30,923 nt of DNA, from IMG/VR virus record IMGVR_UViG_3300003894_000017, positions 1-30,923 of that record; one strand, given 5' to 3'. Shown piece by piece: positions 5,009-21,323 of the stretch. The stretch comes from a virus. Position numbers and translations under genes: made by a program. Position 1 is the first letter of the stretch. Every line of letters begins with the position of its first letter. The notes beneath the pieces were generated by a model. It had not been told where the DNA came from. It was given only the letters and a program-made list of their open reading frames with translations, and searched no databases.

Positions 5009-6802
5009 CTACATCAAATTGTCAATCCGAACGCGCCTGTAGTAGCGGTTGGTGTTGTCGGAGAGACGACCAAGTCCTTGGTTTTCTTCCATACGACCTT
5101 CTGCATAAGGGTTAGCAACCATTCCGTAACGAGTCTTAAACCCTATGTTTGGTTGAAATGTCTCGGCGGTTACGGAGCGAACCATCTGTAGAGGCACGTA
5201 GGGACAGTAAAAAATCCCAGCGTCGTAGGCATTAGTACCCTTATAGCCAGCAACGTAGTAGTGAGTGTCACTTACGTTAGCAGAGTAAGGATCAATGAAA
5301 ACCTTGATCTTACCATTGATTGTACCGGCGAATAGGTTACCGGTGTCATCAACGTTGAGGTTAGCGTTGAGGGCAGGGGTGTAATCAAGTACACCAGCCA
5401 TGGTTAGGGCGGAAGCAACGTCTGCGGAACAGATGATGAAGTTTCCTTTGCCTCTTCTGGTGAGCTGAGCGATGGCGTTCATGTCACGCTCAATCTGGAA
5501 GAGTAGACCCTTGAACTTCTCAACACTCCAACGGCCGTTGGAATCGAGGTCGAGGTCGAAAATACCAGGGGTATTTACGTTGTTCTGTGCACCAGGCTTA
5601 GCGGTACGATATACTGTGCGGATTACCTCACGGTTGATCTCGGCTAGGATCTCAGAGGAGAGAATGTTAGCGAGTTCAGCTTCAGCATCAAGACCATGGA
5701 TGGCACGTAGATCCTGAGCCATTTCCATGGAGTATTGAGCCTTGAGGGCACGACCCTTGGCTTCAACAACAACCTTCTCGATAGAGAAGCCCATTTGACG
5801 GAAACGGAAGTCACCATCGGAAGGACCACCAGCAACACCGTCATACATTCCGGCACGCTCTAGGTCATGAGTGCTCATGCCCTGGAGGTCTACACGGGGA
5901 TCGTTTGTGATGTCACGTAGGATAGGATCATAAGCACCACCGATGTATCCACCACCAGAAGCACCAGAGGCACCAGAGGAACCACAAGCAGGATCAGGAT
6001 AGTTTACGTTACCGGGGTTACCGAGATCGGGGTAAGGACCAGTGACGATTCCGTCACGGCTGTTGAGGAGACCAGGGTTGCCAGAACGTCCAGGTCCAGT
6101 TAGACCATCAGGGGATCTCCAGGTGCGACCAGGTACGTGGTCATAGGGGATATACTTCTCTCTATCACCATAGATGGGGCATCCACCTTCGTCGAAACCA
6201 ATGAGTTCCTGTTGTACGGAACCGTCATCGTTACGATACTGGTAAGGACCAGCTTCGGTAGGAAGACCTAGGGCAGAAGAGAAAGTAGGATCGGGCTCGT
6301 CATATAGTGCCTCGTTAGGGCCCATGGGGCCGTCATAGAGGGAACGCATTGCGAAGATCATGCCGGTAGGACCAGACATTGGCTGAACGCCACAAATGTC
6401 ATAGGCCAGTAGGTTAGGCATGGAGCGTCTAATCAAGGAGATTAGAACGGGATCGAAACCAGCAACGGGTCCTCTGTGATCAGCATAACCTGAATAACCA
6501 GCAACGGGGTCACCGATGATGCTGTTTACAGGAGCAACTTGACCGTCGGCACCGGTGTAGGTTTGACCAGCGGGGTTTACGTTGTTGGTTGGAGGACCAT
6601 CAACGGGGTAGGAATAAGAGTTAGGGATGTTCTCAGTGAGAAGACCATTGGAAACTCCCATGGCAGATTGCTCACGGAGGAATCTCTCTTGGTTTTCTAG
6701 GAGTTGAGCAGTGACAGCCTTTCTGTATGGATCTGTGATCTCAGGTAGATCTTGATGATTCAGAATGGGCTCCCACTTTTCCTGTAGATGTTGTGTAGAC
6801 AT
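5009..6802 (-). CDS. 23: Major capsid protein gp23
   Basis: 597 aa, longer than T4 gp23 (521 aa) and than usual cyanophage versions. It forms the hexamers of the head shell. The conserved C-terminal two thirds include GFSIEKVVVEAKGRALKAQY (about 338-357), the AELANILSSEILAEINREVI helix and the GKIKVFIDPY strand. The N-terminal segment (to about residue 57, GLLTE) is likely the prohead peptide removed by gp21; LTE/N is a possible cleavage site but not certain. Residues about 175-308 are a Gly/Pro/Ser-rich insertion (for example SSGASGASGGGYIGG) where relatives usually have a short loop. The gene follows gp22 and ends in a strong terminator, as expected for the most abundant virion protein. Confidence 0.96.
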   Translation of the reverse strand: MSTQHLQEKWEPILNHQDLPEITDPYRKAVTAQLLENQERFLREQSAMGVSNGLLTENIPNSYSYPVDGPPTNNVNPAGQTYTGADGQVAPVNSIIGDPVAGYSGYADHRGPVAGFDPVLISLIRRSMPNLLAYDICGVQPMSGPTGMIFAMRSLYDGPMGPNEALYDEPDPTFSSALGLPTEAGPYQYRNDDGSVQQELIGFDEGGCPIYGDREKYIPYDHVPGRTWRSPDGLTGPGRSGNPGLLNSRDGIVTGPYPDLGNPGNVNYPDPACGSSGASGASGGGYIGGAYDPILRDITNDPRVDLQGMSTHDLERAGMYDGVAGGPSDGDFRFRQMGFSIEKVVVEAKGRALKAQYSMEMAQDLRAIHGLDAEAELANILSSEILAEINREVIRTVYRTAKPGAQNNVNTPGIFDLDLDSNGRWSVEKFKGLLFQIERDMNAIAQLTRRGKGNFIICSADVASALTMAGVLDYTPALNANLNVDDTGNLFAGTINGKIKVFIDPYSANVSDTHYYVAGYKGTNAYDAGIFYCPYVPLQMVRSVTAETFQPNIGFKTRYGMVANPYAEGRMEENQGLGRLSDNTNRYYRRVRIDNLM

Positions 6803-6840: not shown

Positions 6841-8031
6841 TCAGCGCTTTACAGTTCTAGAAAGAGCGGCATAATATCCAGCCATGCTGGAATCCATACC
6901 CTCTAGAATTGTAGGAGCGAGAGGCTCAGCGGATTCATCCAGGTATTGTGCATTTTGAGCAACTTGTTGAAGGGCATGTTGTCCACCAACAAATGACTCC
7001 TTTAGGATGTTGAGCTTCTCACGATAGTTTTCTTCACTTTCAAACTCAACACTCTCGGCTAGACCGGCAAGCTTATCCTTTGCTGTCTCTGAGAGATCCC
7101 AGGAGACATCAGATAGAACAGCTTGACGCTGGAAACCGGACATTTGAGAAGCGAGAACCACATTGGCCTCGATTTGCTCATTGAGTTTGTCTTCCATATC
7201 ATCAAGTTTTTCGACCATTGATTCAAAGATGTCATACTTCTCGTCGGGAAGGGTGACATAATGGTCTTCAAATAGTGATCTAAGACCACCCATAAAGCTC
7301 TCAGAGAGCTCGTTACGGATGCCATTTTCGACCACTAGTTTGTTCTCCTCTAGCCATTGGTTAGAGGTGTAGTTAAGGAACTGCTCAACTTTCTGAGCAA
7401 TTTCAGTAACTTCACTCTCAAAACGTGAGGAGAATTCTTCCTCCAATCTGGCAACTTCCAGTTGAAGCTTTTGGTTTAGAGCACTTTCGAAGATGACTTT
7501 AGCCTTGGCCTTAAAGTCATCGGAAGCGTTCTGTGCATCGGCGAGTTCACTAAGTGACTCACCGGCAGTATCGTCGATTTGTGTATGCTCATAGGTCTTC
7601 TTCTGACCTACAGTACGACGAGTTGTTCCGGCGGGTCCGCCGAGATTTGAAGCAGGGTTATGGCTGCTATCAAATTTCTTGCCAGGGCCAGTATTACCGC
7701 CAGGGACTACATCACCAGAAATTTTATCTTCAGGACCAGATGTAGTCTTCTTTGTTCCGTCATGGTTTGCATTGCCGGGAATGACATCTCCAGTTAAACC
7801 AGCAGGCATACCATCAGCAGATCCGCCGCCACCACCGGGTGCAGTTGCCTTACCGGTGCCTCTGAGATTTAACTTGGCAGAGTCGTCATCGGGCATGTAA
7901 TCATGAGGTGTTGGTCCACCAACGTCAGTCGTAGACTGACCGGGAACTAATGATGTTGGTACGAGTGTTTGCATTGGTTCTGCGGCAGAACCATTTGCAT
8001 TCACTTGGGTACGAGATTGAGGAGATGCCAT
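6841..8031 (-). CDS. 22: Prohead core scaffold protein gp22
   Basis: 396 aa between gp21 and gp23, the position of T4 gp22, which forms the internal scaffold of the prohead and is degraded by gp21. Residues about 160-340 are highly charged and helical (KAKVIFESALNQKLQLEVAR; EKLDDMEDKLNEQIEANVVL), fitting a scaffold rod. The N-terminal third (about 20-145) is low-complexity and Gly/Pro-rich, with two similar stretches (GDVIPGN and GDVVPGG). Two CTAAATA elements lie ahead of the start. Identification rests on position and scaffold character rather than catalytic motifs. Confidence 0.88.
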   Translation of the reverse strand: MASPQSRTQVNANGSAAEPMQTLVPTSLVPGQSTTDVGGPTPHDYMPDDDSAKLNLRGTGKATAPGGGGGSADGMPAGLTGDVIPGNANHDGTKKTTSGPEDKISGDVVPGGNTGPGKKFDSSHNPASNLGGPAGTTRRTVGQKKTYEHTQIDDTAGESLSELADAQNASDDFKAKAKVIFESALNQKLQLEVARLEEEFSSRFESEVTEIAQKVEQFLNYTSNQWLEENKLVVENGIRNELSESFMGGLRSLFEDHYVTLPDEKYDIFESMVEKLDDMEDKLNEQIEANVVLASQMSGFQRQAVLSDVSWDLSETAKDKLAGLAESVEFESEENYREKLNILKESFVGGQHALQQVAQNAQYLDESAEPLAPTILEGMDSSMAGYYAALSRTVKR

Positions 8032-8081: not shown

Positions 8082-8117
8082 CTTAAGTTGACCGTTTTTA
8101 ATTACGGAAAACTCAAG
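8082..8117 (-). other. Imperfect hairpin between gp21 and gp22
   Basis: An outer arm cttaagtt (8082-8089) pairs with aactcaag (8110-8117) with one mismatch, and an inner CCGT/ACGG pair closes an AT-rich loop. It overlaps the gp21 stop codon. There is no T-tract, so an mRNA processing or attenuation role is only a guess. Confidence 0.3.
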
Positions 8118-8754
8118 ACATTAATAAGTTATGGAAACTGTTTAGAACTTCTTCTTCCAGTTCCCATGGTGCACAATTGTTTAGTCTCTGTTGTGCAAGA
8201 GAAACTTCTTGTTCTTTTAGAAGTCCGTTGTCCCAGATCCATTCTTTTCCTTCCATAATGCCTTGAACGAAAGCGTCCGGAGCAGAGGGATCTGCAACAA
8301 TGTCAGCAGCAGTAGCCAACATGAAGTCTTCACCAACATAATTAATACCGTTCTTTTTGACGAGTGATCCCATTCCACGAGATGATACCCCGAGTGTGAC
8401 ACCATCATTTAAAAGAGCACCAGCAATACGACCCATAGGTGTTTCTAGGATCTTTGCCTTTCCGGTGAAGTTGGATCCTTCCTGACATAATGAGGTGATT
8501 TTGTGAGACACCCTGTCAAGATTGACTGTTGGTCCGTCGGGGTGACCCAACTCCCCCATAGCACGGTTCTTAACGATATACTCCGTGTTGTAACGATCAA
8601 CTTCTTTAGCAAGAATACGAGATTCGTAAATCCTACCATTCCGATTCTTGATATCTCCCTGCAAAAAAGTACCCTCGATGTAGAACGACTTCTTACCATT
8701 CTTTTCTTCTGTTAGTACTCTGACTGATTCGATTTCTTCTCTAATCAGCTTCAT
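8113..8754 (-). CDS. 21: Prohead protease gp21
   Basis: 213 aa, matching T4 gp21 (212 aa), the serine protease that matures the prohead by cleaving gp22, gp23 and internal proteins after Glu. The catalytic histidine is in GELGHPDG (H71) and the nucleophile in LGVSSRGMGS (S124 or S125), the standard herpes-assemblin-like order His ... Ser. It begins MKLIREEIESVRVLTEEKNG like its relatives. Its ATG overlaps the stop of the upstream core-protein gene (TAATG), indicating coupling. It probably also trims the two putative capsid-targeted proteins encoded between gp16 and gp17. Confidence 0.96.
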   Translation of the reverse strand: MKLIREEIESVRVLTEEKNGKKSFYIEGTFLQGDIKNRNGRIYESRILAKEVDRYNTEYIVKNRAMGELGHPDGPTVNLDRVSHKITSLCQEGSNFTGKAKILETPMGRIAGALLNDGVTLGVSSRGMGSLVKKNGINYVGEDFMLATAADIVADPSAPDAFVQGIMEGKEWIWDNGLLKEQEVSLAQQRLNNCAPWELEEEVLNSFHNLLMS

Positions 8755-11562: not shown

Positions 11563-14500
11563 TTAGCCAGCGTTAGGTCTTCTGAAGAGACCAACCTGTT
11601 CACCGAATGAAGCACCAGTCTTCGTGGCAACAAACGTAAGTTGTACGAAGTTGATGGAACGATTAGGCTTGATGTAGAAGTCAGCAATGAACTCGTTACG
11701 ATCAATAACCTCAGGTGTGTTGTTGGACTCGTCACAAACCACGAGGAAGTCAGTCAGACCTCTCTTAGACTGAATGTCTCTGAGGAAGGGGTTGACATTG
11801 TTCTTGAAGTTTATACGGGTTAGAGGATCGTTGAACTCGAAGAGTACCGTTCTTGCAACTTTTTGAATCTGCTTCTCAAGGAAAAGGAAGAGTCTTCTTA
11901 CGTTGATTCTGCTGAAGGCAGAAGTGAAGGCGAGAGCTGTCTTGTCTCCATATAGAACGGTTCCTTCTCCGGGGAAGGTAACAACAGGGTTGACACGAGA
12001 GGTGAATAGATCGTCACGTTGTGACTTGTTGGGGTTGAATCCAAGTTTCACAACATTCTTGATCTGACCACGAACCAAACCAGCAGGAGAGAAGAATGGC
12101 TGTGATACGAGTGAAGTTTGTACAATCGTTCCGGCAACGTCAGCATTCAATGGATAGTAATCGAAACGATCATTGAAACGATCGTAACTATACTTGTAAC
12201 CACTGTCAATGATTGCATAAGATGAAGATGCTAGTTGGTCTGCCCAGGTGATGATTCTTCTACCAATTTCAGAAGCGTTGATTGGTTCAACGGCAGCAGA
12301 TTTTGGAGGAGACACTAGAGCCACACAGGTCTTAAGCTGTTCAGCTAGAGAGATAATGAAGTTGGCCTTAGCAACCGCAGGTGCAAAATCATTTTGAATG
12401 CTTGACTGTAGTGAGCTTTCAGAGAAAACATCAGCTGGTCCTTGTAGGATGTAGTCAAGGTCAGATAGGTTATCGGTGATTACTTTATTGTAACCGACTT
12501 GAATCTCACCAAATGTGGCCTTGAGGTTATCTACACCACCCTTGAGTAGGTAAGGTACATCAACCTTGCTGTTGATGTTGTTTGTATCGACAGCTCCGAA
12601 ACGAGGCATGAGATACTGACATCTGACTCCGGCACCGATTGGAGTTCCAGGAGGAGCCAATACAATGTTAGATGGATTGATGTCCATTGTCTCTAACTGA
12701 GCGTTAGAGTAAATATATTCATTGTTATTGTTGAGAAGATCCTGATAGAAGTTATCAGATCCTTCAACGTTCTTAGCCCCACGTAACTTGGAGGCTAATA
12801 GATACTCATTGAGGATAGTTCCCTTTCCGCCAGGTAGTCCGACAGCCTGTGTGAACTCACCAGTTGCATCATAAACAATCAAGTTAAGTTCGTCATTGCT
12901 GGCGCCCTTATTCTGAGCGTCGAATGATGTTCCAGGACGTGGAGCGAAGTTAGACCAGGGGATACCTTCGAAGGCAATCTGTTTGGAGTACCAATCGTCG
13001 GCAGCATTGATGGTGAATACTCGGATACCGTCATTAATATAATCAATACTTAGATTAGGTCTGTAGGATATAACCCACTTCTCTTCTCTAGAATTCCATA
13101 TCAATTCTGCTCCAAGAGAAGCAGGTCCACTTACGAATACTGCGTTACCTTCCTCATCTACGATGGGAACACCCACGGCATCTAGTGCACGTGTGGTTGA
13201 CCTAACAACATCTCCATCATTAGGACGTGCCTTCCAGCCCCAAGAAATACCTTGGTTTCTGGTGTATTGGGCAGGAGCAAAGATGGTGTTAATCTTGAGG
13301 TTGTTATCAATCAATTGGTTATAGTATAGATGTACACCCTCTGCGTAGGTGTTGAGAACTCTACCTACATAAGTCTCATTTCTTACAAGAACTTCATCAT
13401 CTACTCTGAAGTTGATAGGAGTGAGACCAGCATTGTCGGTGATCAACATCACACGAGCAGCAGCTGCACTTACATCCATAACAAGTCCAATTGGAACTCT
13501 ATCGATACCCTCAAAAGGTCTCATAGGACCAGTGATGATATCACCACGCTTGACGACGTCATCGTCAATATCGAATGGGATTGGATCAATAACAAGAAGT
13601 TCCCATTCTTGAATAGATGTATCTAGGACAAAGGGACTTACGATGTCTACCTCATATACGATTGTAGAATCCTTAACTCCTACTCTCTTTCCAAATGTGA
13701 ATTGAGCAGATCTAGAGGCATCATCTGCTCTCTTCCAAGGACCTTCACTTGTATCGTAGATACCGTTCTCAACAGGATTCTCCTGATCCTTGAGTAGAAC
13801 TCTGCTGTTATCAGTAATTGTTCCGTCAAGAGTTTCAGTAGGATCTTCGGCACCAACCTCAAGATTAAGTTGATTGAATTCCTTGTCCTGACTCATATCA
13901 GTAAGTGTTTGAGTTCTTAGATTTTCATCATGGAACTCAAAGAAGTCAGGTGCATACCCACCTTCTGTTACACGAACATACTTGAATTGTCTGAACTCAG
14001 TTGCCTCGTCGGCATCAACTGCACGAGTCCAAGGACCCATGCTATTAACAACATAGATACCATTATCTCTGCTTGATGTACCACCATTATCCCAGTTTGT
14101 AGTAGCTCCAGTGATTAGAACTCTCATGCTGTCGAGAAGTTCAACACCATCAGCTGTTATCACATTAGCCTTGTTACCATCAGTCCCAATTAATTCATTA
14201 CCATCCTCATCAAGACCGTTGAGGAATCTTTCGAATGTGATATCCTCTTCGAGGCCAGTAAGAGCTTCGCGGGTGTTAATAAAGAGCTGATCATTATCGG
14301 TTAGAGATACACCTGTATATGTCCAGAATGTATCAGAGTTGTCCTGACCAATTCCAGATTGTACTCTTGCAACTCTATTGGTGTCAAATTGATCAAAGGC
14401 AAGATCACCACCAAATCTTCTCCATCCCTCACTTGTTGCTATCCAAATACCATTCTGAGTTGCATCAGCTTGGTCTTTGATTAGAACAATGTCATCCTCG

Positions 14501-16227
14501 GTGACTGCATAACCGTCAATCTCAACTCCGATAGCATCTGCATCCTCAGAAAGATTGATTCCGTCTACCTCAATATCATTACCAGCAACGTCCTTAGATA
14601 CATATGATTCATCACCATTTGTTGCAACAACAACGGTTTGCAATCTCCATCTCGTGACATCATTGTTTCTGATTAGAGAATTGAGATCTACTTCAGTTCC
14701 AACTGAATCGTTATATGTAACTGTGTCTGTGGTGATTACGGCATTAACATCAATCCACTGGTCACGGGGCTTGATTCTTTCAGATAGATCAAGAGATTCT
14801 GCCGGAATGATATTATTTGGATCAGATTCATCGGCGCTACGGGATACTAGATCGACTTCGGGTTCGAAGAATTGAATCTCAGGAGAATCATCTAGGCTAG
14901 GATTATTATTTCCTAGGTATTCAAATACCTTGTCTTTGTTGGTATCACCTTCGTTAACAAGAACTCTCTTTCCGGTTGTGAAGTTTCCACCACGATCAGC
15001 GTTATCAGCTCTCAACCAATCGAGAGGTCTACCGTTAGGATCAAATCCTCTTACGAGGTAGATTCCGTTTTGAGTTGGATTTTCCTGTCTCCAGATTAGA
15101 ACACGATCACCAGATACAGCCAATACACCATCAACAAATTGCTCACCTCTGAGGGGAACATCGATACTAGCTACATCTTGATCGCTACTAGTGGCTAGTC
15201 TTACAGGAGCAAAAGAACCGGAAGTTGTATTTGCAGGATCTACCTCAATATAGACATACTCGCCTAGTTGTTCACCAGGGCCTAGTATACTCTTGTCGAA
15301 TCTGGCAGACATGTCACCGGTATACTTGTCAGAATCTTCATTGACAATAATCTTACCGGCATCTAAGACTTGACTGATTACATGACCAGATCTAGAGTTG
15401 TATGTAAGCTGATAATCAGCACCACTATCGATAACGGCAATACCAATACCATTACCCCATGCTCCGGGATCTTTAGAGATGAAACGGGCATTAGGGACAA
15501 CAACCATTAGTTGTCCGAATTCGGCAGGGTTGCCATCAAGTCCACGACTTTGGATGACATTCACACGACTGCCATCAGAATAACCTTTACCAGTTTCTGA
15601 AATCTTGGCAGATAGAATTTCTCCCGTTCTTTCATCAGCAACGATGTCAACTCTCAAACCACCTTCACCACCCACCGCAAGTCCTTTAGCGGTTCTGTAG
15701 TTTTGGCCACCATCAATAATCTTTACAGACTGGGGAATAGTTCCTAGGTTGATTACAGACTGACCAGATGTTGCTGTAAGGAACTGAGTCTCATTCTTGA
15801 TATAAGCGTTAGACTGGAATAACTCGTTAGGAGTGTATCTTAGACCAGTGTTAGGGTTGATTTTTCCTTCTAGGGATTTATCTAGGAAGAAGTTATCAAC
15901 GGCATTCTTCATTGTTTGGAAGTTGCCGGCTTCGTTACCAGATCCATCTCCTACGGAGTCATCCACACGAACAACATAACATTGTCCACTATACTCTAGG
16001 AAATTATCAACTGTATACCAGTACTCATCCTGGTTAAATTCAATTTGGGGCTTACCAAATACGGTAAGAAGTTGTTGTTCGTCAATAATTTTTACGACTT
16101 CATCAACAGGACCTCTCTGGAATGGACCTGCTAAGAAAGCATTATTATTAATAGTTGCGTCAGGCGTTCCTCTAGTAAGGTCCACCTCCTGGATAACTAC
16201 TCCAGGTGATGCGGTCTTAATAACCAT
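11563..16227 (-). CDS. 18: Giant tail sheath protein gp18 with inserted repeat domains
   Basis: 1554 aa; T4 gp18 has 659, so this sheath subunit is more than twice the standard size. The N-terminal sheath signature (MVIKTASPGVVIQEVDLTRG, then NAFLAGPFQRGPVDEVVKI) and the C-terminal contractile core (about 1130-1554, including SYAIIDSGYKYSYDRFNDRF and NPFLRDIQSKRGLTDFLVVC) are conserved. Between them lie extra domains: a GxGY-type beta segment (about 168-248) related to one in gp13, and four divergent copies of an R-V-L-I/L-x-x-Q-x-x-x-x-x-N-G-I-Y/W ... W-x-R-A domain (about 360-455, 575-655, 695-770, 805-877). These would lie on the outer surface of the sheath. Two late elements and an AGGAG site precede it. 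Confidence 0.93.
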   Translation of the reverse strand: MVIKTASPGVVIQEVDLTRGTPDATINNNAFLAGPFQRGPVDEVVKIIDEQQLLTVFGKPQIEFNQDEYWYTVDNFLEYSGQCYVVRVDDSVGDGSGNEAGNFQTMKNAVDNFFLDKSLEGKINPNTGLRYTPNELFQSNAYIKNETQFLTATSGQSVINLGTIPQSVKIIDGGQNYRTAKGLAVGGEGGLRVDIVADERTGEILSAKISETGKGYSDGSRVNVIQSRGLDGNPAEFGQLMVVVPNARFISKDPGAWGNGIGIAVIDSGADYQLTYNSRSGHVISQVLDAGKIIVNEDSDKYTGDMSARFDKSILGPGEQLGEYVYIEVDPANTTSGSFAPVRLATSSDQDVASIDVPLRGEQFVDGVLAVSGDRVLIWRQENPTQNGIYLVRGFDPNGRPLDWLRADNADRGGNFTTGKRVLVNEGDTNKDKVFEYLGNNNPSLDDSPEIQFFEPEVDLVSRSADESDPNNIIPAESLDLSERIKPRDQWIDVNAVITTDTVTYNDSVGTEVDLNSLIRNNDVTRWRLQTVVVATNGDESYVSKDVAGNDIEVDGINLSEDADAIGVEIDGYAVTEDDIVLIKDQADATQNGIWIATSEGWRRFGGDLAFDQFDTNRVARVQSGIGQDNSDTFWTYTGVSLTDNDQLFINTREALTGLEEDITFERFLNGLDEDGNELIGTDGNKANVITADGVELLDSMRVLITGATTNWDNGGTSSRDNGIYVVNSMGPWTRAVDADEATEFRQFKYVRVTEGGYAPDFFEFHDENLRTQTLTDMSQDKEFNQLNLEVGAEDPTETLDGTITDNSRVLLKDQENPVENGIYDTSEGPWKRADDASRSAQFTFGKRVGVKDSTIVYEVDIVSPFVLDTSIQEWELLVIDPIPFDIDDDVVKRGDIITGPMRPFEGIDRVPIGLVMDVSAAAARVMLITDNAGLTPINFRVDDEVLVRNETYVGRVLNTYAEGVHLYYNQLIDNNLKINTIFAPAQYTRNQGISWGWKARPNDGDVVRSTTRALDAVGVPIVDEEGNAVFVSGPASLGAELIWNSREEKWVISYRPNLSIDYINDGIRVFTINAADDWYSKQIAFEGIPWSNFAPRPGTSFDAQNKGASNDELNLIVYDATGEFTQAVGLPGGKGTILNEYLLASKLRGAKNVEGSDNFYQDLLNNNNEYIYSNAQLETMDINPSNIVLAPPGTPIGAGVRCQYLMPRFGAVDTNNINSKVDVPYLLKGGVDNLKATFGEIQVGYNKVITDNLSDLDYILQGPADVFSESSLQSSIQNDFAPAVAKANFIISLAEQLKTCVALVSPPKSAAVEPINASEIGRRIITWADQLASSSYAIIDSGYKYSYDRFNDRFDYYPLNADVAGTIVQTSLVSQPFFSPAGLVRGQIKNVVKLGFNPNKSQRDDLFTSRVNPVVTFPGEGTVLYGDKTALAFTSAFSRINVRRLFLFLEKQIQKVARTVLFEFNDPLTRINFKNNVNPFLRDIQSKRGLTDFLVVCDESNNTPEVIDRNEFIADFYIKPNRSINFVQLTFVATKTGASFGEQVGLFRRPNAG
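13588..15210 (-). repeat. Four tandem 'NGIY' domain repeats inside gp18
   Basis: At protein level the cores are DRVLIWRQENPTQNGIYLVR, DIVLIKDQADATQNGIWIAT, a degenerate copy SMRVLITGATTNWDNGG followed by DNGIYVV, and SRVLLKDQENPVENGIYDTS. Each is followed by a W-x-R segment and a V-x-V strand (for example GPWTRAVDADEATEFRQF; GPWKRADDASRSAQFTFGKR). This domain type occurs as repeats in other phage virion proteins. DNA identity between copies is low, so the duplications are old. Confidence 0.8.
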
Positions 16228-16355: not shown

Positions 16356-18056
16356 TTACCATCCGTCAAATCCCCCTTGACCTGACCATTCCCATGGGCT
16401 GTATGGCATTCCATAATCACCACCAAATCCATCAGCTGATTTCCATAACCTACCTTCATTATCTATCTCATCCCGAGCATCACTTCCATCTAAAATAAAA
16501 CCAAAAGGGGCCATATCACTTTCCAAACTTTCCTTATCTTCTGCATATAATTCTTCACGGACTGATTGTTCCGTCATCTCTTTGAAGTAATCCTGTGCCA
16601 CTGCCCAGGCATAAATAACCATACACATCACAAGGTCATCATGGCATCCTTCTTCAGCAGAAAAAGAGTCACGCTTCTCAACAAACGTGGTGAGCTCGTT
16701 GATGATTTGGAAGTCTTGGAAAAGAATCTTATCAGACTCCACCATTTGTTTGAGGTTACTACAACCAAGTTTCTTAGGAGCCTTAGCCATCTTAAGTCCA
16801 AGTTGAACTTTGCCTCCAGAAAATCCATAACCTAGAACCTGACCTGCACGTCCTCTCATTGCAGTCATCAATAAATTCTCATATTCCATATCATAGTATA
16901 TGATGGATGCTACTTGGTCTCCAATATCATTGACCTCACATAGTATCCAGGCGTTATTATACTTCTTACAGGTACTCACAATAATATCGGGGAACAGCAT
17001 CGGTTTGATTGTGTTGTTCCTATACTTTGCTACGAGTTTATGAGGATAGGATGTAATGTCAACTAAGATAAAGGCAGAGTAATCTAACTTCATACCTCTT
17101 GATACATCAACAGTCATCAAATATTCATGACCTTCTATCGGGTCTTCAAATATATCTAATCCACCAGATGATGTAATCGGATCATGGTATACAAGTGACT
17201 TCAGTTTACTACCAGCAATCAATGTACCGGCAGAACCAATGAAGTCACATTCAAATTCCTGAGCAAACTGTTGTTCACTAGTGTTGGCAATCGTCTCTGC
17301 CTTCCACTTCTCATCACGACCAGGGACTTCTGACCAGTGAGCTTCAATAGAATTATAACTATTCCTTCCTTTCTCTGCATCTTCCCACAACTTATAGAAG
17401 TGGTTCATCCCATTCGGGGTAGATACAATAATAACCTTAGTAGATTTACCAGAGGAGATTGTAGGATATACAGACGAGAAGAATTCTTCTGCAATGTTAG
17501 TTGGAACGAAAGCAAATTCGTCCAACATTACAATATTATAAGAGAAACCACGAACAGCAGAACTAGAAGTTGAACTAGCAGTGATGCGACTCCCATTCTC
17601 AAGTTCAATAGAACCCTTGTTCCAGGCAATAACACCTTGTTGTAACCACTTCGGAAGATTTTCATAAGAGGTTTGTAGTTTAGCCATCAATTCAAACGAA
17701 GTCTCTCGTTTGTTAGCAAGAATAGCAACGTTGATGTTGTCACGAAAAATAGCCTGGTGAATCAGATAGGCCGTAACCGTAACTGACTTACCAGACTGGC
17801 GTGGTAGTTTACAGATTGTGAATCTGTTATTATGAAACGAATTGATTAGTTGTTGCTGAAATGGATATGGATGAAAAGGAACGATACCTTCATCCAATGA
17901 AATAACTTTAATATAATTATGAAGAAAATATTCTGGGTCCTTAGAACACTTAATAATTTCTTGGACCTGATGCTTCGTAAAATTTATCGTGACTCCTCTT
18001 TGTTTGAGGAGGGGATTCATTTTATAATGTAGGTCGCTACCTCTCTTCGCTGCCAT
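16356..18056 (-). CDS. 17: Terminase large subunit gp17
   Basis: 566 aa; T4 gp17 has 610. It is the ATP-driven packaging motor and headful nuclease. ATPase motifs: Walker A KLPRQSGKS (83-91) and Walker B IVMLDE (175-180), then the STPNG coupling motif (212-216). Nuclease acidic residues: D317 in MTVDVSRG, E374 in ILCEVNDIGDQ and D473/D474 in CHDDLVM. The last 70 residues are variable, Gly/Trp-rich and end SGQGGFDGW. It starts inside the 3' end of a 35-aa membrane micro-gene and is separated from its partner gp16 by a six-gene cassette, unlike T4 where the two are adjacent. No intron or insertion is seen. Confidence 0.97.
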   Translation of the reverse strand: MAAKRGSDLHYKMNPLLKQRGVTINFTKHQVQEIIKCSKDPEYFLHNYIKVISLDEGIVPFHPYPFQQQLINSFHNNRFTICKLPRQSGKSVTVTAYLIHQAIFRDNINVAILANKRETSFELMAKLQTSYENLPKWLQQGVIAWNKGSIELENGSRITASSTSSSAVRGFSYNIVMLDEFAFVPTNIAEEFFSSVYPTISSGKSTKVIIVSTPNGMNHFYKLWEDAEKGRNSYNSIEAHWSEVPGRDEKWKAETIANTSEQQFAQEFECDFIGSAGTLIAGSKLKSLVYHDPITSSGGLDIFEDPIEGHEYLMTVDVSRGMKLDYSAFILVDITSYPHKLVAKYRNNTIKPMLFPDIIVSTCKKYNNAWILCEVNDIGDQVASIIYYDMEYENLLMTAMRGRAGQVLGYGFSGGKVQLGLKMAKAPKKLGCSNLKQMVESDKILFQDFQIINELTTFVEKRDSFSAEEGCHDDLVMCMVIYAWAVAQDYFKEMTEQSVREELYAEDKESLESDMAPFGFILDGSDARDEIDNEGRLWKSADGFGGDYGMPYSPWEWSGQGGFDGW

Positions 18057-18362: not shown

Positions 18363-18761
18363 TTACTTCTTCTTCTTGATTTTGTTTCTATCTAAATTTG
18401 CTGTTTTTAATGCATTATCAGCATCTTTCTGACTAAGTGTATAATTGTTGTCCTTTGGTTTGGGCATCTGTCGTGCATCAGTTCTATCAGATACTTTAAG
18501 GGTTAAAACCTTAGAATTCTCTGCTGCTGTTTTTGCCGCAGGTCCTTTCCTTCCTCTGGATGCTGCGTGTTTCTTATCGGGTGTTGTAAATACTCTACCC
18601 TTCTCATCCCACGATCCTTTCTTACCATCTCTGCCCTTAGTGCTATCCCAGAATCCACGACTCCTGATACTAGATTCTGAATTAGGATGGGTGCCATGAT
18701 AGTGATTTTTAAACTTAAGTTGCTTTGGAGCTTCCTCCATAAATTGCTCATAAGTTTTCAT
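18363..18761 (-). CDS. Putative capsid-packaged protein with ADP-ribosyltransferase-like motifs
   Basis: 132 aa. The first eleven residues, MKTYEQFMEEA, align position by position with the capsid-targeting peptide of T4 internal protein III (MKTYQEFIAE, cut by gp21 after Glu10), so the protein is probably loaded into the prohead and trimmed. The body begins HYHGTHPNSESSIRSRGFWD (20-39), a pattern like the H-G-T/x-x-x-I-x-x-x-G-F start of ADP-ribosyltransferases, followed by GRVFTTPDKKHAASRG (55-70) and a VLTLKV strand (85-90). A clear third-motif Glu is not seen, so activity is unproven. The C-terminus is basic (NKIKKKK). T4 packages an ADP-ribosyltransferase, Alt, in its head, which makes this combination meaningful. 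A strong AGGAG site lies upstream; the gene follows the 455-aa gene after 10 nt. Confidence 0.6.
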   Translation of the reverse strand: MKTYEQFMEEAPKQLKFKNHYHGTHPNSESSIRSRGFWDSTKGRDGKKGSWDEKGRVFTTPDKKHAASRGRKGPAAKTAAENSKVLTLKVSDRTDARQMPKPKDNNYTLSQKDADNALKTANLDRNKIKKKK

Positions 18762-18771
18762 TGATTTTCTC

Positions 18772-20139
18772 CTAGCAATTCCAGGCTCTTAAAGATTTAT
18801 TGATACGGCTATCGGGGTCACTTGCCGTCTTCTTTGATGTAAGTTTCTTTTTCATTCCAGACATACGTGCACAGAATGAAGCTCTTCTAGGATTACCTTT
18901 CTTTTTAGAAGGTGCCTTGAGGTCGGAGCCGGGGTTCTCTCTCTCGTAGGACTTACGTCCTTTTTCATTGAGCCCCCCGGCTTCATTCTTTCCCGACTTC
19001 TTAGTCCAAGCAGCTCCCTCTTCTAAGAATTCAAACTCCAGATGATCTAGTGTTCCACCAAATCTGACAGTGTTTTCTCCTATCAACATATGATAAGCAC
19101 CATCCTCCATTAGACATGGAACGCTGGTTGGTGTTCCATACTCTTCAGTGATAAGTTCCAGTGTTTCTTGGTCCTCATCGGACATCTGTAACCAATCTTC
19201 CTTGGCAAGAATGACAAAGTTCTTTGTCATAGGAGGGACAAAGACCATAGAATTATCAGGACACTTAACTGCATAATAAGAGATTACTTTAGCACCTGGA
19301 TAAACCATATCCACACATCTCTGCATCTGGTCTGGAGTTGGATAATTTACTTCAGGCCAGAAGAATCTCCATCTCTTATATTGACATCTAAACATAAATG
19401 TCACTTCATATACTTGACCAGTTGTGGATATTCTAACTGCCTCATCAAGAGGAATCCATCCACATTGCTCAACAATTTGATTCTCTTTCACCCAGTCATC
19501 AGGAATCTGTCCATCGTGTTCCTCACGGAACATACGATTCAATTCCTTTGGTGTAATCTCTTCTTCCTTTGCCAATTGACGCATGACTTTGTCAATGGCA
19601 ATCCAGGAGTGGTCTTCTAACTTGAGTAGTCTCTTCTCTAGTTCAGTAACAATAGGATTCTCAGCTAGGAATTCTTGTTCGTCTCCATCCTCTTCTGTAT
19701 AAAGATCATCCTCGGAAATAATACCAAACTTATTATGAATATATGACTCATACTCTTCCAATGTCATGGAAGAGGTGAGTGCGGCATAGTTATCTTTTTT
19801 GATTCCAATGTTACCACCATGTTCTCCGGTCAGTGACATCTCACCTAGATCACCACCATTAGGACCAGTCTCTGTGGGTTGTCCCTCATCACCACTACCG
19901 TTTCCTCCAGTGATCTTTCCATACATCTGAAGCGCCTGGTTGGCAACACTCTTCATAGAACGAACAGGTTTTACTTCCTTCTCACTAATAACTTTTTCTT
20001 CTACGGGAACCTCGATGTCAGAAATAGATGACTTCATAGTAGAGTATCCTTTCTCTACCATTTGTTCTCTTTGTTCTGTCAAATCGATTTTGATTCCATC
20101 TTTGAGTCCTTTGAGACTCTGAATAAACTGCCGGGACAT
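18772..20139 (-). CDS. Hypothetical protein with C-terminal DUF6321-like domain
   Basis: 455 aa. The last 65 residues (NEAGGLNEKGRKSYERENPG, then RRASFCARMSGMKKKLTSKK and a terminal SRINKSLRAWNC) match the pattern of the small basic domain known as DUF6321, often seen as a short protein in marine phages. Ahead of it is an acidic middle region (about 145-250, EEDGDEQEFLAENPIVTELE) and a compact Trp/Tyr/Cys-bearing region (about 225-340, FMFRCQYKRWRFFWPEVNYP). Residues about 75-115 are Gly-rich. No catalytic motif is recognised. A CTAAATA element lies 22 nt upstream, so it probably starts its own late transcript that includes the next gene. It does not begin with the capsid-targeting peptide. 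Confidence 0.8.
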   Translation of the reverse strand: MSRQFIQSLKGLKDGIKIDLTEQREQMVEKGYSTMKSSISDIEVPVEEKVISEKEVKPVRSMKSVANQALQMYGKITGGNGSGDEGQPTETGPNGGDLGEMSLTGEHGGNIGIKKDNYAALTSSMTLEEYESYIHNKFGIISEDDLYTEEDGDEQEFLAENPIVTELEKRLLKLEDHSWIAIDKVMRQLAKEEEITPKELNRMFREEHDGQIPDDWVKENQIVEQCGWIPLDEAVRISTTGQVYEVTFMFRCQYKRWRFFWPEVNYPTPDQMQRCVDMVYPGAKVISYYAVKCPDNSMVFVPPMTKNFVILAKEDWLQMSDEDQETLELITEEYGTPTSVPCLMEDGAYHMLIGENTVRFGGTLDHLEFEFLEEGAAWTKKSGKNEAGGLNEKGRKSYERENPGSDLKAPSKKKGNPRRASFCARMSGMKKKLTSKKTASDPDSRINKSLRAWNC

Positions 20140-20160
20140 CTTAGTTAAAACCTTTATTGT

Positions 20161-20167
20161 TATTTAG
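20161..20167 (-). promoter_or_regulatory. T4-type late promoter element (CTAAATA)
   Basis: CTAAATA on the minus strand, 22 nt ahead of the 455-aa gene. Confidence 0.5.
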
Positions 20168-20173
20168 ATTTAA

Positions 20174-20686
20174 TTACTTGACTACCACTTTAGGTCCACT
20201 TCCAGTATAACTATCCTCTGTTCCTGATGCCTTTGGTTTTAAAGCATCCTTTACTATACCACCTGCAAATCTTCCCGCTGCGCCCAGACCTCTCTTTGCT
20301 AGATTTCCTGCACCCCTCTGTAACTTACGTCTCAAATTCGGATCAGCAAATTTATTTGGACCATCTGGTTTGGATGTGATAGGTGGTCTGCCAGAAGGTG
20401 GCTTTCCTTTTAGACGAGGGTTTCCACGCATTTTGGAACCAGGGGCCACTTTATTACCAGATGGTGCCCTACTGGCGGTCTTACCTGCTTGGGTTGCTCT
20501 ACTGGCGGTGTTACCTGCTTGGGTTGCTCTACTGGCGGTGCCAGCCGATCTGGCTGCTCCTGCTACACCCCTTGCTTTCGCCCCAACTTTAGCAGCTTGA
20601 GCTCCCATCTGTGCTACTCTGGCAAGAGCACCCCATAACTCATCAAGATTTTCGACTTCTTCGTTGAACTGTTTATAAGTTTTCAT
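20174..20686 (-). CDS. Putative basic internal head protein with capsid-targeting peptide
   Basis: 170 aa. It begins MKTYKQFNEEV, the same peptide type as T4 internal proteins and as the gene at 18363-18761; cleavage after Glu10 is predicted, although Asn at -3 differs from the usual Leu/Ile. The mature part is Ala/Gly/Arg/Lys-rich and highly basic, with a 10-residue tandem repeat (SRATQAGNTA / SRATQAGKTA) and Pro/Lys-rich middle (KMRGNPRLKGKPPSGRPPIT). Such a composition suits binding to packaged DNA. T4 internal proteins are likewise small, basic and injected with the genome. It may alternatively be a membrane-active or structural protein, since Ala/Gly-rich helices (GAGNLAKRGLGAAGRFAGGI) could be amphipathic. 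Confidence 0.65.
   Translation of the reverse strand: MKTYKQFNEEVENLDELWGALARVAQMGAQAAKVGAKARGVAGAARSAGTASRATQAGNTASRATQAGKTASRAPSGNKVAPGSKMRGNPRLKGKPPSGRPPITSKPDGPNKFADPNLRRKLQRGAGNLAKRGLGAAGRFAGGIVKDALKPKASGTEDSYTGSGPKVVVK
20471..20540. repeat. 30-bp tandem repeat, 2.3 copies
   Basis: The plus-strand unit starting actggcggtcttacctgctt at 20471 recurs at 20501 with one change in the region shown and starts again at 20531. It encodes the ten-residue repeat of the basic internal-protein candidate. High DNA identity points to a recent duplication. Confidence 0.85.
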
Positions 20687-20864: not shown

Positions 20865-21323
20865 TTATTTATTATCAATTGGATTGTTACTAATTGACCC
20901 TGCCTCCTTTAGAGATTTCAATAACTCTTCGGTGGAACCAGACAAAAATATATTATTTTGAGTATTAGTATTTTGTACCTTTGTGTCTTCAACTTCTAAG
21001 TCTTTCATCTTCTTCTGAAGGTCAGCTAACTTATCAACAACATCTGCAGTAGCTTTTGCTCCATTGAAACAAACCTCATATGCTCTTGGGTGTTGTGATT
21101 GCATTGCTGCATCCATACTCTCATTGAGAGTTTCCTGCATCTTTTCTACAAGATCATATAACTGAGCTCTTTGATAAGTATAATCCTTTTCAATATCATC
21201 TTCTCTTGTTGTCATCTTCAGGGGTTTTTCTTCCTCTCGTTTGACAATCTCTACCTTCTCGACCTCAGTGGGTTCGATATTAAATGTTTCATCTAATGAT
21301 TCAAAGGCTTTGTCTTTACTCAT
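20865..21323 (-). CDS. 16: Terminase small subunit gp16
   Basis: 152 aa (T4 gp16 has 164). It recognises concatemeric DNA and stimulates gp17. The central segment (YTYQRAQLYDLVEKMQETLN, about 48-67, through HPRAYEVCFNGAKATADVVD, about 79-98) is the helical oligomerisation core of T4-type small terminases, with KLADLQKKMKDLEV continuing the helix. The acidic N-terminus (EPTEVEKVEIVKREEEK) and Asn/Thr-rich C-terminus are variable. Its ATG overlaps the gp15 stop (ATGA), so it is translationally coupled to gp15. Confidence 0.9.
   Translation of the reverse strand: MSKDKAFESLDETFNIEPTEVEKVEIVKREEEKPLKMTTREDDIEKDYTYQRAQLYDLVEKMQETLNESMDAAMQSQHPRAYEVCFNGAKATADVVDKLADLQKKMKDLEVEDTKVQNTNTQNNIFLSGSTEELLKSLKEAGSISNNPIDNK
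20866..20872 (-). promoter_or_regulatory. T4-type late promoter element (ATAAATA)
   Basis: ATAAATA on the minus strand at the gp16 stop region, 13 nt ahead of the 53-aa gene. Confidence 0.4.

Follow-up and report, generated by a model that had tools for sequence, protein, structure and literature searches.

Why should two proteins with unrelated bodies begin with almost the same ten residues? The question is raised by a stretch of viral DNA of 30,923 nucleotides (IMG/VR record IMGVR_UViG_3300003894_000017; the whole stretch is called the window below). It covers part of the structural module of a T4-like phage of marine cyanobacteria, and Synechococcus phage S-CREM2 is the isolate closest to it in DNA sequence. 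All window genes described here lie on the minus strand. Protein A (132 amino acids; 18363-18761) starts with MKTYEQFMEEA and protein B (170 amino acids; 20174-20686) with MKTYKQFNEEV, just as a first-pass annotation had described when it read the shared leader as a packaging signal. A gene of 455 amino acids separates them. It is very likely, on our analysis, that A and B are capsid-targeted internal head proteins of the T4 kind and that their leader is a capsid targeting sequence (CTS). It is probable that both are injected into the host cell along with the DNA, because relatives bear the same tag on enzymes detected in virus particles.

Is the leader more than a coincidence? Among the open reading frames (ORFs) of the window, M-K-T-Y-x-x-F-x-x-E occurs in A and B only, with a chance expectation of about 0, and a DNA pattern for MKT[FY]xxFxEE finds exactly two matches in the window against none in shuffled sequence. 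The codons of the two leaders diverge past the first four residues; thus the identity is maintained at the protein level. In a leader-unbiased set of 4,303 distinct N-termini, taken from the window, S-CREM2 and 80 terminase loci, the form [KRQN]2-[FY]4-F7-E10 is present 15 times, against a mean of 0.25 for permuted placements, and none of 7,919 permuted residue placements attained 15 matches. Chance and a common DNA origin of the leader are ruled out by the shuffles, the permuted motifs and the codon differences. A tblastn search with A and B gave no matches in 50,697 phage records, and homology was therefore approached through the leader pattern. In IMG/VR, MKTYxQFxEE retrieved 33 stretches and the permuted MKYTxFQxEE none, while a pattern for MKTF..[KQE..]FxxEA retrieved at least 120; these leaders are borne by about 59 body clusters, including one for A and one for B. 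A strict leader pattern, scanned genome-wide, gave 28 matches across 17 records, compared with 3 for a reversed control. It had no match in S-PM2, HTVC008M or MED4-213, which rules out a leader universal in T4-like phages. On one aquatic contig (L161:5915-9422) five consecutive ORFs with differing bodies start with the leader, possibly a dedicated cargo island.

What does the leader resemble? T4 ipII and ipIII both begin with MKTYQEFIAE, as the first-pass annotation had correctly quoted for IPIII, and residues 1-10 of A (18732-18761) and B (20657-20686) are identical to this CTS at residues 1-4, 7 and 10. In T4 IPIII, residues 1-10 are sufficient for packaging, and mutagenesis has assigned targeting to residues 4 and 7 of the CTS and processing to residues 8 and 10 (review of Black's work, PMC9026906). 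Y4, F7 and E10 are retained in both A and B; at residue 8, where relatives usually have L, I or F, A has M and B has N. Like IPII and IPIII, A and B join an N-terminal leader to bodies that are small, basic and, within each pair, unrelated, and the companions of the T4 CTS are encoded in the same genome. These are the gp21 prohead protease (8113-8754; Peptidase_S77, 2.9e-33), rightly placed in the window by the earlier reading and expected to remove the leader, and a gp22-like scaffold (core) protein (6841-8031; T4_CASP, 7e-64), the expected docking partner. Unlike the T4 proteins, A and B lack I at residue 8, have bodies not recognised as T4 internal proteins, are encoded between terS and terL, and belong to a phage with a cyanobacterial host.

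The first-pass annotation had gp21 cutting after residue 10 in both proteins. The published consensus is a cut after L/I-x-E (PMC9026906), and E10 is present in both leaders with M (A) or N (B) at P3. A cut at M-E-E|A is plausible for A. The proposal fits B less well: N8-E9-E10 would make a poor gp21 site (N-E-E|V), and L-D-E at residues 14-16 (20639-20647) conforms to the consensus, so that cleavage after E16 appears likelier there than after E10.

Are proteins with this leader found in virions? S-CREM2 has 52 virion proteins among its 219 ORFs (PMC10665884). Those with the leader are ORF6 (MKDFDSFLEE, with the S-adenosylmethionine (SAM) lyase domain PF23780), ORF13 (MKDLHSFLTE), ORF14 (MKRFDAFLTE, a kinase), ORF136 (MQTFSMFFSE; 8 unique peptides, PMC10665884) and ORF154 (MKNFSSFLTE, a cytidylyltransferase). 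A loose leader regex matches six S-CREM2 proteins, five from the virion and one non-virion ORF (Fisher p = 0.003), a narrow form matches three, all from the virion (p = 0.013), and shifted motifs match none or one. In its loose form the leader marks mainly virion proteins, which accords with the packaging claim. ORF12, labelled Cas9, carries RFASFMAEA at residues 18-26. Behind the leader, the cytidylyltransferases, the S-CREM2 kinase and the 'Cas9' protein share a module of about 50 amino acids, A..LGL..DGHGGWYD..GEF.AKT..GKLKF...Q, which might serve as a second element for docking or for DNA binding. It is present in only two S-CREM2 virion proteins, ORF14 (L037:10582-12846) and ORF12 (L037:7707-10313), and also at L260, L266 and a cluster of leader loci.

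Since the loose regex was settled only once the S-CREM2 virion N-termini had been seen, more weight is given to the core cyanophage protein T4-GC190, an NMNAT-type cytidylyltransferase that was examined in 13 genomes. The strict leader lies exactly at the annotated start of this protein in ten of them (S-SM1, S-SCSM1, Syn9, P-SSM2, P-SSM7, Syn33, S-SM2, SynMITS9220M01, S-SCSM2R and S-CREM2) and was not found in the other three, S-PM2, Melnitz-1 and MED4-213. T4-GC190 has been detected in virions of S-SM1 (PMC3037559), S-SCSM1 (PMC9602691) and S-CREM2 (PMC10665884), and the S-SM1 paper remarked that it had gone undetected in those of S-PM2 (PMC3037559), whose copy has no leader. This contrast is suggestive only, as detection depth varied between the studies.

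Several points weigh against packaging. Besides the post hoc choice of the loose regex, B has no hydrophobic residue 8, many virion proteins have no leader (as expected of tail and shell parts), and the phage is a metagenomic fragment, known here from sequence alone. The S-CREM2 authors were unable to exclude co-purified contaminants (PMC10665884), and those of S-SCSM1 likewise did not decide between packaging and contamination for such enzymes (PMC9602691). Finally, neither T4 gp61.1 nor S-SCSM1_30 is annotated as a virion protein, although both begin with the leader. These two genes would suit a leader that is a short conserved N-terminal helix with no packaging role, such as a signal for a chaperone or the membrane, or a preference of the start region. 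That explanation is very improbable: the leader is enriched among virion proteins, is position-specific when set against permuted motifs, and in T4 itself is identical to the experimentally defined CTS. The T4 genome scan returned ipII, ipIII and gp61.1 only; the last (NC_000866 18966-19130; 54 amino acids) begins with a CTS-like leader, MKTFKEFIKE. Packaging, as first proposed, is supported by the match of the conserved positions to the T4 CTS residues, by the leader-bearing enzymes in virions of relatives and by the wide variety of bodies.

How are the leader genes placed? B is the first leader gene after that of gp16 (terS; 20865-21323) and is syntenic with S-CREM2 ORF136. Twelve phages with a complete gene after terS in the same arrangement were compared, namely the window, S-CREM2, contig L063 and nine metagenomic contigs, a small gene intervening in L050 and in the window. 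In all twelve the gene begins with the leader or a close variant (MKTYRQLAEV in L048, MKTYELFTEA in L054 and MKTYTKWFAE in L066). The bodies are all basic, with isoelectric points (pI) of 9.5-11.7, and only 6 of the 55 pairs among the 11 relatives align at E<1e-3; B aligns with none of them. The body of B, rich in Ala, Gly, Lys and Arg (pI 11.7), has no Pfam match. It contains about 2.5 copies of a ten-residue tandem repeat, TASRATQAG(N/K) (20450-20540).

The next gene, of 455 amino acids (18772-20139), separates B from A and encodes a C-terminal DUF6321 domain (PF19846, 5e-23). It is conserved at 34-41% identity; the window copy is 34% identical (E 2e-74) to its homologue S-CREM2 ORF137, a virion protein identified by 4 peptides (PMC10665884). 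Some proteins that bear the leader at their own N-terminus (L010, L020, L021, L033) have a DUF6321-like C-terminus, which suggests that DUF6321 is a domain of packaged proteins. S-CREM2 shares with the window the order terS, leader gene, DUF6321 gene, terL, and both ORF136 and ORF137 are in its virions; it differs in that the body of ORF136, with its variant leader, cannot be aligned with B and that the slot of A holds no gene. In the closest relative, L040, a second leader gene lies between the DUF6321 gene and terL, at the place of A. Its body is SAM-lyase-like (BLAST 1.5e-9 to S-CREM2 ORF6; PF23780 at 3e-5, below the cut-off), so that the place and the leader are fixed and the cargo differs. 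P-SSM7 and Syn33 have another gene order beside terS, and the slot rule is therefore limited to relatives of the window's clade.

What is the cargo in the slot of A? Protein A has no Pfam match. Its body contains HYHGT...I..RGF...VFTTP...A, and a body-only profile places A in a family of leader proteins at E 2.3e-11, whereas the best of 200 shuffles reached 0.24. A match driven by the leader alone is ruled out, because it survives leader removal. B is not among the matches of this profile, in keeping with the earlier statement that the two bodies are unrelated. The family pattern is HGT/HYT...I...GF...V(Y/F)TT, in which H22 (the putative motif I His), I32 and G36 are invariant across 10 sequences; motifs II and III could not be assigned with confidence. 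The leader also gives several relatives a match to PHROG 2667, 'internal head protein'. Relatives match weakly the PARP, ART-PolyVal, DUF3990 and RNA 2'-phosphotransferase profiles, and their scores lie below the curated Pfam cut-offs for ADP-ribosyltransferases (ARTs; PARP 3.9e-4, ART-PolyVal 0.006-0.012); for this reason A is named ART-like and not filed in a named ART family. In an AlphaFold2 (AF2) model of one relative, L237 (mean confidence, pLDDT, 78), the top 22 matches in the PDB all belong to the ART superfamily (KptA/Tpt1, diphtheria toxin, PARP), with Tpt1/KptA first, a best E of 1.5e-3, TM scores of 0.3-0.43 and probabilities up to 1.0.

Alternatively, A may have some other fold, the HGT motif being a coincidence in a disordered basic protein. 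The missing Pfam match of A and the sub-threshold matches of its relatives (ART-PolyVal, PARP, DUF3990) are compatible with this, and the AF2 model of A itself, at pLDDT 63 and a best fold E of 0.29 with no significant single match, tells against an ART. Such a coincidence seems unlikely, however, in view of the distance between the body-only match and the best shuffle and of the uniform fold matches of the family model. It is likely, then, that A, to which the first-pass annotation assigned no function, is a divergent member of the ART superfamily, with an ART-like domain at about residues 15-115 (18417-18719) and a Lys-rich tail. A survey has proposed that ARTs encoded near head-packaging genes are packaged (PMC9503650), and the leader supplies a mechanism for that here. 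Packaging and injection are predicted for A as an ART-superfamily cargo, as in T4 Alt, an injected ART, and in head-packaged phage ARTs (PMC9503650). The likeness to Alt is one of description, A being a divergent KptA/PARP-like form of 132 amino acids with a leader of the internal-protein type. T4 Alt is a separate, larger ART of the R-S-E type.

Do such proteins act on the host, or only in the head? The leader might mark packaged structural or scaffold-core proteins that serve head assembly or DNA condensation only. The small, basic, low-complexity nature of B and its slot relatives would suit such a role, as would the head-assembly defects of T4 IPIII mutants (PMC9026906). On the other hand, the bodies behind the leader include SAM lyase, cytidylyltransferase, kinase, DPBB lytic transglycosylase and ART-like domains, and T4 Ip1-3 are published to block restriction enzymes once injected; a purely structural role is a possibility that we hold to be the lesser one. 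For host-acting internal proteins we infer, in the phage of the window, docking, cleavage, injection and enzyme activity as follows. Late in infection the leader, above all Y4 and F7, would dock the protein on the gp22-type scaffold core in the prohead. Then gp21 would cut past a glutamate (E10 in A; in B either E10 or, with greater likelihood, E16), and the mature body, which is strongly basic, would remain in the head with the DNA to be ejected into the next host. The slot would be conserved and its cargo replaceable: B, in the terS-side slot, may be a rapidly diverging DNA-compacting or defence-countering internal protein, and A, in the terL-side slot, may act on a host macromolecule by modifying it as infection begins.

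More broadly, the data lean towards a single portable capsid-import address, M-K-x-[FY]-x-x-F-[hydrophobic]-x-E, shared by Kyanoviridae and related aquatic T4-like phages, which would load a large, interchangeable set of enzymes into the head, with the GHGGW module as a second element in several cargoes and dedicated cargo slots beside the terminase genes. The proposed cargo comprises NMNAT-type cytidylyltransferase, SAM lyase, kinase, Cas9-like nuclease, ART, lytic transglycosylase and dozens of bodies with no assigned function. The first-pass annotation considered packaged effectors little described in cyanophages; this needs correction, as several cyanophages have been reported to package regulatory enzymes in their virions, with no targeting signal and with contamination left open. 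Cyanophage virions repeatedly hold metabolic and regulatory enzymes that their authors were unable to sort into packaged cargo and contamination, and a leader that can be read from sequence settles the matter for many of them. With it, proteins so far labelled hypothetical become a list of candidate injected effectors, open to testing, for viruses that abound in the ocean; it also opens a route to packing proteins of choice into the heads of cyanophages. The open-access literature, to which the search was confined, yielded no account of the leader in cyanophages, so that this negative is weak evidence of novelty. The kind itself is known. What appears new, within that literature, is its extension to cyanophages and the reason that it gives for virion enzymes which had been puzzling.

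A gene of 63 amino acids lies between A and gp17 (terL; 16356-18056), and the sheath, tube and portal genes follow between gp17 and gp21, with gp23 (5009-6802) beyond gp22. The window has 8 copies of the late-promoter-like motif CTAAATA. Each is on the coding strand and precedes a gene start, those of gp18 and gp22 included. One copy (20161-20167) is just upstream of the DUF6321 gene, and hence of A, a placement that fits late expression. The tail sheath protein (11563-16227) has 1554 amino acids, about twice the 794 of S-CREM2, and contains at least three repeated inserts of the type R-V-L-[LI]-[KW]-x-Q-x-[NA]-P..NGI[YW]. The major capsid protein (5009-6802) has 597 amino acids against 456 in S-CREM2, with a Gly/Asp/Pro-rich insertion at about residues 180-300.
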